Assembly: GCA_031257105.1 (NCBI GenBank)
Contig: JAIRPG010000007.1
Span: forward strand, 1 to 56,574
DNA: 56,574 bases
Source: Treponema sp.
Lineage (GTDB): Bacteria > Spirochaetota > Spirochaetia > Treponematales > Breznakiellaceae
Reading direction: 5' to 3'
Shown: one piece after another, positions 1,645 to 55,205 of the stretch
Numbering within the stretch: the stretch's first letter is position 1
Layout of the letters: each line of letters begins with the position of its first letter
The notes under the pieces: model-generated
Databases searched by the model: none
Seen by the model: the letters and a program-made list of their open reading frames with translations, nothing else
What the model was told of the DNA's origin: nothing
Translations under genes and position numbers: made by a program

Positions 1645-3008
1645 CAAGACAGATTAGATAACGCCGCTACCGCCGCGCCGAAGAGGCTTGCCTGCTCCAC
1701 CGGCGCAATCACATAGGAACGAGGTATGTCCCTGGTGAGCATGACATGGAGATAGGACTCCAAGGCTTCCCTCATGCCCTTGTAGATCATGTAGGTGGTT
1801 CCCTCCACCGCAATCCGCGCCGGCACAAAGGGATCCCTCCCGCCATCTATACGTTCCACCATGGCGGCCACTACCGCGGCGGAAAGCAGCGCTCCCCGCT
1901 TGGTGACGATGGAAGTTAGATACACCAGCGAGGTAAGGGCGTCCCGCTCGTCGGGGCCGAAGAGTTCGCCGATAGGTCCCTCCGAAGCCAGGGGCGCGTG
2001 CATAAAACCGTTGAGATCTTTCGTTTGCAGCGTTTGCCACGCCAACAATTCATCAGATTTCCTGAACGTGAGGAGCCCGTCTCTGACAGCCTGTTTGAGG
2101 ATCCGCAAGGTCAGCGGCCCCAGGTACGCGCCGGCGCTGGCCTTCTCTTGGGTGTAGACGCCGGGTGTTTTCGTGGAGGCGTCGTATTCCCGGTCGAGGG
2201 CGCCCAGGAACCGGGGATTAAAGTTACCGCTCTCGCAGACCACGATCTGGGGGGCGGTTTCGGATTCAAAGCCGATTTTAGGGATACGCTTTTCCGGGTA
2301 GGCGGTGTTAAACCCCGTGCCCAGAATAAAACCGATCACCGGCCCGCTTTCTATACCGTAGGTATCCGCGCCTTTCCGCCTGCCGCCATCAGGGGGAATC
2401 TCCACCAGTCCGGAAAGCAGGGTCGATACGGTATCGTTGAGGAGCGCGATTCGTTCCGGAGCGCGAATCTTCCGCCGGGCCAGCGCGTCCCGCAGCCCTT
2501 GGCCGATGCGTTTACCGATCACATCCGGGGCGTCCACTTCTTTGCTCAAGGCCATGAGGATACCATCGGAATCTTTGGTTATCTCCATGGGGTAAGAAAA
2601 GCAGAAACCTATCCCTTCAATGCCTTTGGCTTCTTCTATAAGGGGCCCCGCGGCGTTGGCAATCTGATCAAAGAAAGCCTCCGCGCTTACCGCGCCATGA
2701 GTACCGGGCATGGGAACCTTCCGGGAACCTTCCGCGACCGCTTTACCCTGGTCGTCAAAGCGCACCAGGGCCGCCCGCAGGTTCGTTCCTCCGGCATCCA
2801 AAGCCAATACGGTCTTCCCCGGCGGGACGTTGGAAACGGGACTAATATACGTGGGAAGCATAGGCAGCGCCGAAGGCTGTCCTCGAAGCCCCCGCTCCAT
2901 ATTGGCAAGAACATCCCGTACCAGAATGACCGGATCGCAAATATCGTAGTGAAAACCGTAAAAACGGGCGAAATCCGCCAGCTCTTTTGGGTTAAAAGAT
3001 GAGCCCAT
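1644..3008 (-). CDS. hexokinase family protein
   Basis: LALDAGGTNLRAALVRF phosphate-binding motif, GIGFCFSYPMEI, ALLNDTVSTLLSG, GFILGTGFNTAY. Confidence 0.85.
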   Translation of the reverse strand: MGSSFNPKELADFARFYGFHYDICDPVILVRDVLANMERGLRGQPSALPMLPTYISPVSNVPPGKTVLALDAGGTNLRAALVRFDDQGKAVAEGSRKVPMPGTHGAVSAEAFFDQIANAAGPLIEEAKGIEGIGFCFSYPMEITKDSDGILMALSKEVDAPDVIGKRIGQGLRDALARRKIRAPERIALLNDTVSTLLSGLVEIPPDGGRRKGADTYGIESGPVIGFILGTGFNTAYPEKRIPKIGFESETAPQIVVCESGNFNPRFLGALDREYDASTKTPGVYTQEKASAGAYLGPLTLRILKQAVRDGLLTFRKSDELLAWQTLQTKDLNGFMHAPLASEGPIGELFGPDERDALTSLVYLTSIVTKRGALLSAAVVAAMVERIDGGRDPFVPARIAVEGTTYMIYKGMREALESYLHVMLTRDIPRSYVIAPVEQASLFGAAVAALSNLS

Positions 3009-51613: not shown

Positions 51614-52513
51614 ATGGTAATGAAGCAGTCCAATACCGAAAGAAATTCTTACGACGGTTCTCTCTACGGCCTTTTTACGCTGCTGGAAACCTTTTGCGGG
51701 GAAACCGGCGAGACGCCGGCAAAGAGCCTCCACGAAGGATGCGGCTTATGGTATTCTCAGGGTTGTTCCTCCAGACGGGAAGCAAGCGGCCAACGGGAAC
51801 TCTTTGTGTTTTCGGAGCCGGAGACTCCGCCGGAAATTCCGCCGGAGCCTTGCCTTGCAAGACCGTCTTTTCAGGGGGATCTCTTCCGTGAATACCAAGA
51901 CGCCCTGGAGCTTCCCCTTGCGAAAGAACTCTACGGATATTCCGTCTCCGCTCATGATGGATTCGTCCACGGTTGGATGAGCGAACTTCCCATCGAAGCG
52001 GAACTTATCCGTTATGCCCGCCGGGTTATCACGGCGGCGCGGACTGCTCCCCGAGGAGCCGGCAGGTACCGGGCGGAACAGGCCGCTCTCGACCGGGGAG
52101 ATCCGGTTGTCAGAACGGTTCTGGAGGCGGCCTCCAAAGTAACCCAAGAGATCCACCGCTTAACGGGGTTTCTCCGTTTCTCCCCTCATTCCGGTGGGAG
52201 CTCTATTGCCCACTGCGAGCCGGATTATTTCGCGCTTCCCGCCTTGGCCTTCCATTTTTCGCGGCGTTTTGGCGAAACCTCCTGGAAGATCATTGATAAG
52301 CGCCGTTCCCTCTGTCTGGCGCAGACGCCGAAAGGTGAGATTCGGCTCTTCCCCCTGACCGGCGGCGCGGAAGAACATCCGGAAGATGATCCCTGGGAAG
52401 CTCTCTGGCGGAACTATCACCGGTCTATCAACAACGAAAGCCGGAACAATCCGGCCTTACAGCGGCAGTTTATGCCCAAGCGGTATTGGAAGTACCTTCC
52501 CGAAGTGGACTAA
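51614..52513 (+). CDS. DUF4130 / TIGR03915-type putative DNA metabolism protein
   Basis: IHRLTGFLRFSP..., CEPDYFALPALAFHFSRRFGETSWKIIDKRRSLCL, C-terminal WEALWRNYHRSINNESRNNPALQRQFMPKRYWKYLPE. Confidence 0.75.
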   Translation: MVMKQSNTERNSYDGSLYGLFTLLETFCGETGETPAKSLHEGCGLWYSQGCSSRREASGQRELFVFSEPETPPEIPPEPCLARPSFQGDLFREYQDALELPLAKELYGYSVSAHDGFVHGWMSELPIEAELIRYARRVITAARTAPRGAGRYRAEQAALDRGDPVVRTVLEAASKVTQEIHRLTGFLRFSPHSGGSSIAHCEPDYFALPALAFHFSRRFGETSWKIIDKRRSLCLAQTPKGEIRLFPLTGGAEEHPEDDPWEALWRNYHRSINNESRNNPALQRQFMPKRYWKYLPEVD

Positions 52514-52537: not shown

Positions 52538-54721
52538 TCAGGACTTGGCGGTCCATTCCGGATTTGTTTTGACAATGGCGCCGGATAATCGATAGGGTGA
52601 TTGCGCTACATCTAAAAACAGCGGCTTATAGCCTATATCTTTATTGTATTTAAGAACTTCCTGCAGTATAAGCAAATTCCAAGAGAGTTCCAAAGGCAAT
52701 TTTGGCAGGGTATTAAACCAGTCTTTATCTATGGTAGCGGGTATAATGCGGTCTTCCATACCTAAAAGCCTATCCAATGAATTCTTCATTTTTGAAATAA
52801 AAACGGCGTCGATTTGAAGGTACTCCGAGAGGATATATGTTGATTCCGTATAAAAATAAAATATTGGCCCAAAAATGTCGTCGTGTAGTATATTATTTAT
52901 TACGTTTACCGACAGCTTCAAACTTGAAAGATATTTCTTGGTTTCTTCACGGGTAATAATACCGCCGGTTGTTTTTGCGAGATTAATTAAAACACCTTTA
53001 TAATTTAGGAACGAACTGGTTTGTTTTTCCCAGATATGCAAAGCTTCCTTAAAAAGGAAATGACAGCCATTATATTTTTCTTTAGAGAAGAGATGCCTGG
53101 CCAGCATATAGATAGCCATATCGGTCTCGAACCCGTTATCATTCATAAAGAATAGCAGTTCAGCGCGGACGGCTTCAAAAAAGATATGCCTGTTTGAATA
53201 ACCGAAAAACCGCTTAAACTGGCTTCGTAATATCTCCAGCAGCTTAGCGGCGGCTTCATCAATGCCTTTAATGCTGGATCGGTGCATATAATAATTTTTT
53301 TTAAGTTCTACAATATTGTTTGAAAGCTGTATTATCTTACCTACCGGGACATAACTGTTGCGGGGAAATAATTTACCAATATCATCCAAGGCGCATAATT
53401 TGAGTTTCTGGGTAATCAGGAATTCTTCTATTTTTTTGCCTGCTTTCGTTTCTTTTTCACGCAATACCAAGCTTTTGACGGGTTTCTTAATTTTCATCGT
53501 TGAAAAATCAGGTTCAAAGCCTGAACAATAGAATATATCATAGTGTTCATTATACTGGTAATTTTTGTATACGCTTTCGTTTTTTAAAAGATAGATAAGT
53601 TGGGAACTGTATTGAAAATCGTTTAGATATTCACGGATAACATCAGAACTTATATAAGTGATGCTGTCCGTATCGGCGCGGATAAAGGTTAATATATTAA
53701 ATGGAAAATCGTTAACAATGGCTGCCATAAAATTCAAACATACCGATTCAATCTGCCGTATGCGTTCCCGTGTCAGGTTTCTTTTTTCCGCGATGTCCAG
53801 CAGCGTAAACCCATTTGCCCTTTTATATAAAATATCAACCAAGCCTTTATTCCGCGGTTCATTAAAAAGCTGCGAAAAGGGTTTAGCAAGCATTTCAATT
53901 ATATTGAAAGACAATAATTCCTGTATGCGGACTACATCGCCGGTTAGGCTTGTTTTAACAATCAAAGAAAAAAGACTTTTAAGATCGCCTATTTTTTTAA
54001 TTTCTTTAAGCAGCGGCGAGATGCGGTTTATAGAACACTGAATTGTTTCGCCGCAATCCTGGAGGAAAAGATCCAATGATTTATCAAGCCGGCTTTCCGG
54101 TATCTTGTTGTACGATTCTTCAAGAGCGCTCATCCGATAATCATAGCGTTCCTGGGACATTTTTTGAAAATAGTTAACCGGGTCTTCGTGTCCTAAAATT
54201 TTGCCCGCCAGGGGCTTTTCTTTCGCAATAAAGGCGATGAGTTCTTTAGTGACTTTTGCGGTGGTGTTTGCAAGGTTATTGATGGCTTTTTCATCTAAAC
54301 TGAAGAGTTTACCTGCGGAAAAAATGCCGGCATCGCGGAGGATATTGTGGGCTTCGAGGGATATATCGAGAGCGCCTATATAGGCGGAAGGATATATCGT
54401 ATCTTTGGTATAAACAAAGCGACAATCGAGATCATTCCTCTTGTCCTGCTCAGAACATTTCTTGGCGGTATTTTTTATTTGCTCGTGTAACTTTTTTTGG
54501 ATAAAAAGAATTTCTTTTATGCTTTCCTTGCCGAGGTTCTTAATTGCCCCTATCGTACGCTCATCGAGGCTTAGGACTTTGGCGACGGTATCATAGCCGT
54601 TTTTGATAAGGGCTTTAAAGGAGCGCGTGGAGAAACCTAACCGAGATGATATAGGGCTTTCGGGAGATAAAAACATAAATTGGGACGGGATGCCTATTTC
54701 ATAAGAAGGAATATCTTTCAT
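52538..54721 (-). CDS. large protein with alpha-CTD-like HhH domains and a sigma-70 region 4-like HTH
   Basis: FSTRSFKALIKNGYDTVAKVLSLDERTIGAIKNLGKESIKEI; second ISLEAHNILRDAGIFSAGKLFSLDEKAINNLANTTAKVTKEL; DIAEKRNLTRERIRQIESVCLNFM. AT-richer than its surroundings. Confidence 0.7.
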   Translation of the reverse strand: MKDIPSYEIGIPSQFMFLSPESPISSRLGFSTRSFKALIKNGYDTVAKVLSLDERTIGAIKNLGKESIKEILFIQKKLHEQIKNTAKKCSEQDKRNDLDCRFVYTKDTIYPSAYIGALDISLEAHNILRDAGIFSAGKLFSLDEKAINNLANTTAKVTKELIAFIAKEKPLAGKILGHEDPVNYFQKMSQERYDYRMSALEESYNKIPESRLDKSLDLFLQDCGETIQCSINRISPLLKEIKKIGDLKSLFSLIVKTSLTGDVVRIQELLSFNIIEMLAKPFSQLFNEPRNKGLVDILYKRANGFTLLDIAEKRNLTRERIRQIESVCLNFMAAIVNDFPFNILTFIRADTDSITYISSDVIREYLNDFQYSSQLIYLLKNESVYKNYQYNEHYDIFYCSGFEPDFSTMKIKKPVKSLVLREKETKAGKKIEEFLITQKLKLCALDDIGKLFPRNSYVPVGKIIQLSNNIVELKKNYYMHRSSIKGIDEAAAKLLEILRSQFKRFFGYSNRHIFFEAVRAELLFFMNDNGFETDMAIYMLARHLFSKEKYNGCHFLFKEALHIWEKQTSSFLNYKGVLINLAKTTGGIITREETKKYLSSLKLSVNVINNILHDDIFGPIFYFYTESTYILSEYLQIDAVFISKMKNSLDRLLGMEDRIIPATIDKDWFNTLPKLPLELSWNLLILQEVLKYNKDIGYKPLFLDVAQSPYRLSGAIVKTNPEWTAKS

Positions 54722-54866: not shown

Positions 54867-55205
54867 TCAGGCCGCCCGCTGAAGGTCAATGAGTTTTTTG
54901 TAGCGGACTTTTTTGAACAGAACCCCCTCCGCGCCGTCCAGAGACCGGAACAGTTCCGGCCCCTTAAACTGGATGCAGCACTGCGCCTGCCCCCAATGGG
55001 TCAGGGAATCGCTGGTTTCGCTCAAACAGAACGCCCGGATCTGCGCCGATCCCGCCGATTTGTGGTAATGGAGCAGTTGTTTCGTGTCGTTTTTATCGGG
55101 CCATTTTTCGGGATCCGTCAGATAGATTGCGGAATGTTCCACGATTTGCAGCATGGCGCTGAGGGTGGTGTAGCGGTACAGAAAATCGGGCGGTTTGCCG
55201 TTCAT
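54867..55205 (-). CDS. DUF2971-like protein, apparently truncated
   Basis: FLYRYTTLSAMLQIVEHSAIYLTDPEKWPDKNDTK...AFCLSETSDSLTHWGQAQCCIQFKGPEL; 112 aa versus usually longer family members. Confidence 0.5.
   Translation of the reverse strand: MNGKPPDFLYRYTTLSAMLQIVEHSAIYLTDPEKWPDKNDTKQLLHYHKSAGSAQIRAFCLSETSDSLTHWGQAQCCIQFKGPELFRSLDGAEGVLFKKVRYKKLIDLQRAA

Follow-up and report, generated by a model that had tools for sequence, protein, structure and literature searches.

What would a protein that carries both kinds of promoter-recognition module be doing outside RNA polymerase? The question is raised by a single gene in the window, that is, the whole 56,574-nt stretch of a Treponema sp. contig (JAIRPG010000007.1) that was analysed. 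This gene begins with ATG, contains no internal stop codon and encodes P0001, a 727-aa protein that joins alpha-CTD-like HhH modules, a sigma-70 region 4 (sigma4)-like HTH and, by homology, a run of winged helices (wHTH). In the literature searched, no description was found of a protein that combines alpha-CTD-like and sigma4-like modules with many winged helices outside RNA polymerase. The features of the gene are listed below, with the evidence for each in brackets.

52538..54721, minus strand: P0001 gene, alpha-CTD/sigma4/wHTH-array protein, 727 aa (ORF call, Pfam)
54485..54643, minus strand: alpha-CTD-like HhH domain 1, residues 27-79 (PF03118, AF2 model, Foldseek)
54191..54379, minus strand: alpha-CTD-like HhH domain 2, degenerate, residues ~115-177 (second PF03118 stretch, helix pattern of the model, relatives)
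53711..53857, minus strand: sigma-70 region 4-like HTH, residues ~289-337, with TRERIRQIE at 317-325 (PF04545, model helices)
53525..53695, minus strand: first winged helix after sigma4, residues ~343-399 (AF2 model; hhalign to family, E 6.5e-12)
52541..53488, minus strand: C-terminal winged-helix array, residues ~412-727, short of ~65 C-terminal residues (hhalign to family)

A sequence-only reading of this DNA had placed two alpha-CTD-like HhH domains and one sigma-70 region 4 HTH in the N-terminal half, and had concluded that both types of promoter-recognition module occur here outside RNA polymerase; Pfam and structure prediction agree with it on each of these points. Specifically, PF03118 (RNA_pol_A_CTD) matches P0001 in two stretches (E 7.4e-15), of which residues 27-79 are the best, and PF04545 (Sigma70_r4) matches residues 303-329 (nt ~53735-53815) with an E-value of 4e-4 and a score below the gathering threshold. 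Since PF04545 exceeds this Pfam cut-off in several of the relatives tested (24.6-27.9 bits), the sigma4 match of P0001 is not a chance one. In an AF2 model built from an 11-sequence alignment, residues 20-405 reach a pLDDT of ~80; they comprise a pair of HhH units, a helical stretch that includes the sigma4 HTH, and a single winged helix, with the HhH and HTH helices lying where the sequence had suggested. The second alpha-CTD-like domain repeats the helix pattern of the first in this model and lines up with second copies that are intact in relatives. Foldseek superposes the HhH part on solved alpha-CTDs with a TMt of 0.85-0.86 and an rmsd of 1.3-1.4 A; the E-values exceed 0.001, which is what a small domain within a large chain would be expected to give.

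The C-terminal half required a different route, because residues 408-727 of the AF2 model are of low confidence and unusable, and a relative was modelled in its place. This 849-aa protein (mean pLDDT 83) shows an alpha-CTD and a helical region with sigma4, followed by about nine repeats with the wHTH order of elements, as counted by us from the DSSP string. Its best Foldseek partners are the tandem winged-helix proteins UFL1, the SelB C-terminus, Dcc1 and AlkX/YcaQ, together with alpha-CTDs. By hhalign, the C-terminal part of the P0001 subfamily aligns with the end of the family array and is collinear with it to the end (E 2.9e-5). The remainder of about 400 aa, which had been said to match nothing, therefore does have relatives, in a family whose model shows tandem winged helices, and it is a winged-helix array by homology, its own model not being confident there. 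HARE-HTH (PF05066), also considered for this part, was discarded on the absence of a Pfam match.

The neighbours of related genes provide the first indication of function. A survey of homologues for defence islands, which the sequence-only reading had called for, gave a divided answer: the subfamily of P0001 has defence neighbours, unlike most of the wider family, whose members mostly lie among housekeeping genes. For example, a relative in genome G558 (contig C340), 61% identical to P0001 over its full length, has its stop codon followed after 6 nt by the ATG of a same-strand gene that PADLOC matches to BrxP (E 1.4e-91). In G574, brxP (E 8.3e-135) lies together with a subfamily gene on one 2.6-kb contig, where both are N-terminally cut and the join looks chimeric, and in both genomes the contig ends before brxC. 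The contigs of G558, G574, G604 and G058 stop within or next to the family gene. Strong brxP matches were found in only 5 of the 203 genomes of the window's taxonomic family, so that chance alone would not be expected to put the gene beside brxP in two genera. In two further genomes, G548 and G549, the subfamily gene is convergent with a DUF2357/PD-(D/E)XK (McrBC-like) gene, which in G549 is adjoined by an AAA gene that matches PDC-M26A, a candidate defence family. The two convergent loci are as follows.

L055, 5236-12272: subfamily gene convergent with DUF2357/PD-(D/E)XK gene, with the AAA gene (PDC-M26A)
L056, 1-3751: subfamily gene convergent with DUF2357/PD-(D/E)XK gene

Type 4 BREX has been described as brxPCZL (PMC11931770), and a published component list likewise contains no gene upstream of brxP (PMC12839542). 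Fifteen type 4 BREX loci with a strong full or partial BrxP were assembled (L091-L094, L095, L112-L117, L123-L125 and L126), and in 13 of them a same-strand gene immediately precedes brxP, with an overlap or a gap of a few nucleotides, and has a product of 458-975 aa; the exceptions are G230 (L117) and a Methanosphaera plasmid (L126). A wHTH array is present in 11 of these 13 proteins, with the motif WNxxLLExY in the C-terminal region, and the shorter products of L092 and L093 resemble the N-terminal part of the array-bearing protein of L114 (E 1e-24 to 1e-27). The gene may be new to type 4 BREX, as judged from the lists of the two papers. The array proteins upstream of brxP are encoded at the following positions.

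L091, 11495-13336, minus strand
L112, 11861-13336, minus strand
L113, 8131-10272, minus strand
L114, 4341-6185, plus strand
L115, 9205-11313, minus strand
L116, 3500-6349, plus strand
L094, 859-3465, plus strand
L095, 7618-10542, plus strand
L123, 4213-5994, plus strand
L124, 3887-5995, plus strand
L125, 3629-6001, plus strand

These proteins come from loci of several lineages and have variable N-terminal parts, and those that were tested gave no match to a Pfam, NCBIfam or PADLOC family over the array region. The L094 protein carries a C-terminal PD-T4-3-like part and that of L113 a ZorC-like stretch, and such variable ends suit a role as a defence sensor or recognition component. The array of the alpha-CTD/sigma4 family is homologous to them, as seen both by hhalign (E 1.5e-14 over 418 columns) and by hmmsearch, in which eight family members reach E 1e-15 to 1e-21. 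Compared directly, the C-termini of P0001-type proteins give an hhalign E-value of 6e-4 at a probability of 29%, and single-sequence HMMER searches are mostly not significant; their link to the brxP-upstream proteins is therefore drawn through transitivity and collinearity.

Ten weaker BrxP matches (E 1e-77 to 1e-90), SspD-like in appearance, were kept out of the 15 loci, and an upstream gene of this kind is absent from all five of the ten that were examined. The upstream gene was also considered as DUF4007/SspB and rejected, as no Pfam match was present. Two SspBCD-like loci (L118 and L119, from two genomes of the same taxonomic order) show, beside the PAPS reductase gene, a divergent gene whose product ends in an HNH-like part (CFYCGK...NAVDHFIPWSF). 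The L095 record (MT835511.1, 5471-25003) is labelled Bacteriophage sp. and combines housekeeping-type bacterial genes with a type 4 BREX operon; it is probably a bacterial contig mislabelled as phage.

Taken together, these observations lead us to propose, with a probability of about 0.5, that type 4 BREX-like defence has a DNA-reading component of which the P0001 family is the alpha-CTD/sigma4 version. P0001 would be a chain of DNA-binding modules, namely two alpha-CTD-like HhH domains, one sigma4-like HTH and tandem winged helices, made as the product of the first operon gene, right before the phosphorothioation enzyme BrxP. The promoter-type modules and the wHTH array would bind one particular kind of DNA, perhaps AT-rich and promoter-like, and partner enzymes would then modify self DNA or act on the invader. 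For P0001-type proteins, DNA binding, complex formation with BrxP and the defence outcome are what we infer. The anti-phage role suggested by the sequence-only reading gains from the two relatives beside brxP, the two beside DUF2357/PD-(D/E)XK genes and the array shared with brxP-upstream proteins, through a link that is nonetheless indirect. A broader proposal is more tentative, with the odds somewhat against it: type 4 BREX may have an overlooked, fast-varying tandem-winged-helix DNA reader encoded upstream of brxP, of which the window's subfamily would be the version with recruited alpha-CTD and sigma region 4, promoter-like DNA being read by the immune system to direct phosphorothioation or restriction. 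Against a BREX component stands the fact that P0001 itself lies outside any BREX locus.

The main rival to a BREX component is a transcription regulator that acts on its own and either competes with RNA polymerase or assists it, its proximity to defence genes reflecting the regulation of some such genes. The alpha-CTD-like domain would sit on UP-element-like DNA and sigma4 on a -35-like element, the wHTH array would add specificity, and chosen promoters would be repressed or reshaped. Many family members are indeed single genes among housekeeping genes, and by our mapping TRERIRQIE keeps the residues through which E. coli RpoD touches the -35 element. The first alpha-CTD, mapped in the same way, keeps several residues that make up part of the DNA-binding determinant of the E. 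coli alpha-CTD. The second, however, has by this mapping lost most of the determinant, including its key arginine and glycine, and Pfam and NCBIfam detect in P0001 neither sigma region 2 (core binding, -10 recognition) outside region 4 nor the alpha-NTD dimerisation domain, alpha-CTD matches being the only ones to RpoA. Moreover, the 6-nt gap to brxP in G558 and the nuclease-like extension of one brxP-upstream protein argue for a complex partner rather than a regulator alone, and we regard the regulator as the less likely reading.

The state of the copy in the window raises a second alternative, namely that what is left in this genome is a decaying, functionless remnant of a lost defence locus. 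Two features at its 3' end are relevant.

52538..52565, minus strand: 3' breakpoint, with homology up to ~residue 719 and then a non-homologous tail of 7-8 residues, PEWTAKS* (subfamily alignment)
51614..52513, plus strand: convergent neighbour, DUF4130 protein (PF13566, E 7.7e-37)

Relative to the full-length subfamily members (L045, L054, L055 and L056), P0001 is short of ~65 C-terminal residues, with the breakpoint beside the DUF4130 gene, which ends 24 bp from the P0001 stop codon. A frameshift was rejected as the cause, as the other frames show no continuation. No strong brxP match is present in the host genome, which is 86% complete, and the window's P0001 is thus an orphan, both without brxP and C-terminally shortened. 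Other copies of the subfamily are decaying: one is reduced to an 80-codon fragment (G546; L061, 934-1173, minus strand) and the G558 copy contains one in-frame TAA (L045, ~1725-1768, minus strand). A functionless gene is at odds, however, with 727 open codons and with a dN/dS (NG86) of 0.23-0.31 against the closest full-length relative; together with a value of 0.19 between two sister copies, this indicates that the family is under purifying selection. We consider it doubtful that the gene has lost all function. P0001 is possibly a relic of a defence locus, and would now be a remnant or, decoupled, a protein that still works as a putative DNA-binding regulator.

A further question is how the gene reached this genome. 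By tblastn, matches occur in 20 of the 203 genomes of the window's taxonomic family (its own included) and in 10 of 59 genera, and in three genomes outside this family, as sampled in two even sets of the phylum and class. A contig scan assigns the match-bearing genomes to Treponema sp. and to Spirochaetaceae/Spirochaetales MAGs, which from the isolate names we read as termite-gut bacteria. The P0001 gene has a GC content of 0.387, compared with 0.596 and 0.534 in its flanks, and most relatives show the same AT-rich contrast. Horizontal acquisition, proposed earlier from base composition and position, is well supported by this contrast and by the patchy distribution. A phage-derived or phage-borne regulator, which the sequence-only reading had also offered, would fit the AT-rich, patchy gene and is nevertheless very unlikely, as tblastn found no relative in 50,697 phage records or 72,556 plasmids, IMG/VR viral contigs and an alignment-based viral-contig scan likewise contained none, and the best PHROGs match had an E-value of 0.03.

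Family members range from 574 to 1155 aa, and in a subset from one genus an N-terminal HAD hydrolase (PF00702, E 5.8e-20) is fused to the alpha-CTD/sigma4/wHTH protein (L023, 1062-4520, L024, 1594-5058, and L025, 3-2000, on the minus strand; L007, 130-3399, and L033, 8414-11860, on the plus strand). In L033 and L025 the fused gene comes immediately after an ABC transporter operon. A family member in G513 is immediately preceded by the end of a TnpB/OrfB-like transposase (L058, 3-473, plus strand). Upstream of P0001 itself, a short ORF (54867-55205, minus strand) has no Pfam match and resembles what we take to be a truncated DUF2971-type protein.

Should the position upstream of brxP be functional, type 4 BREX would gain an additional, unannotated DNA-binding component. 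Such a component would give direct access to the question of how phosphorothioation-based defence selects its target DNA, and would be an unusual case of immunity reusing promoter-recognition modules.

Among known proteins, the RpoA alpha-CTD and sigma-70 region 4 share domain-level homology with P0001, in which, unlike RpoA and sigma-70, neither an alpha-NTD nor sigma regions 1-3 are detected. MzaA of the MZA anti-phage system (NF041931) is similar in having a sigma4-like HTH within a large defence protein; P0001 is not MzaA, since 29 of 726 model positions are matched (E 4.8e-4). The brxP-upstream array proteins share with the family a homologous array and, in G558, the same operon position, but they differ in their variable N-terminal parts, where alpha-CTD and sigma4 are not detected. 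Finally, in PglW of type 2 BREX (NF033442, PDLC02512) three wHTH modules come after an alpha-CTD-like helical domain (PMC12839542), an order of domains that recurs in P0001, and PglW is the sole PADLOC model that P0001 matches, over its alpha-CTD, with relatives matching more strongly (E 3.8e-10). PglW differs in its NERD nuclease, kinase and C-terminal inactive STAND domains and has no described sigma4; P0001 is not itself PglW, as Pfam finds neither NERD nuclease nor Ser/Thr kinase domains in it. By analogy, PglW is the nearest precedent for how a P0001-like protein could serve BREX.
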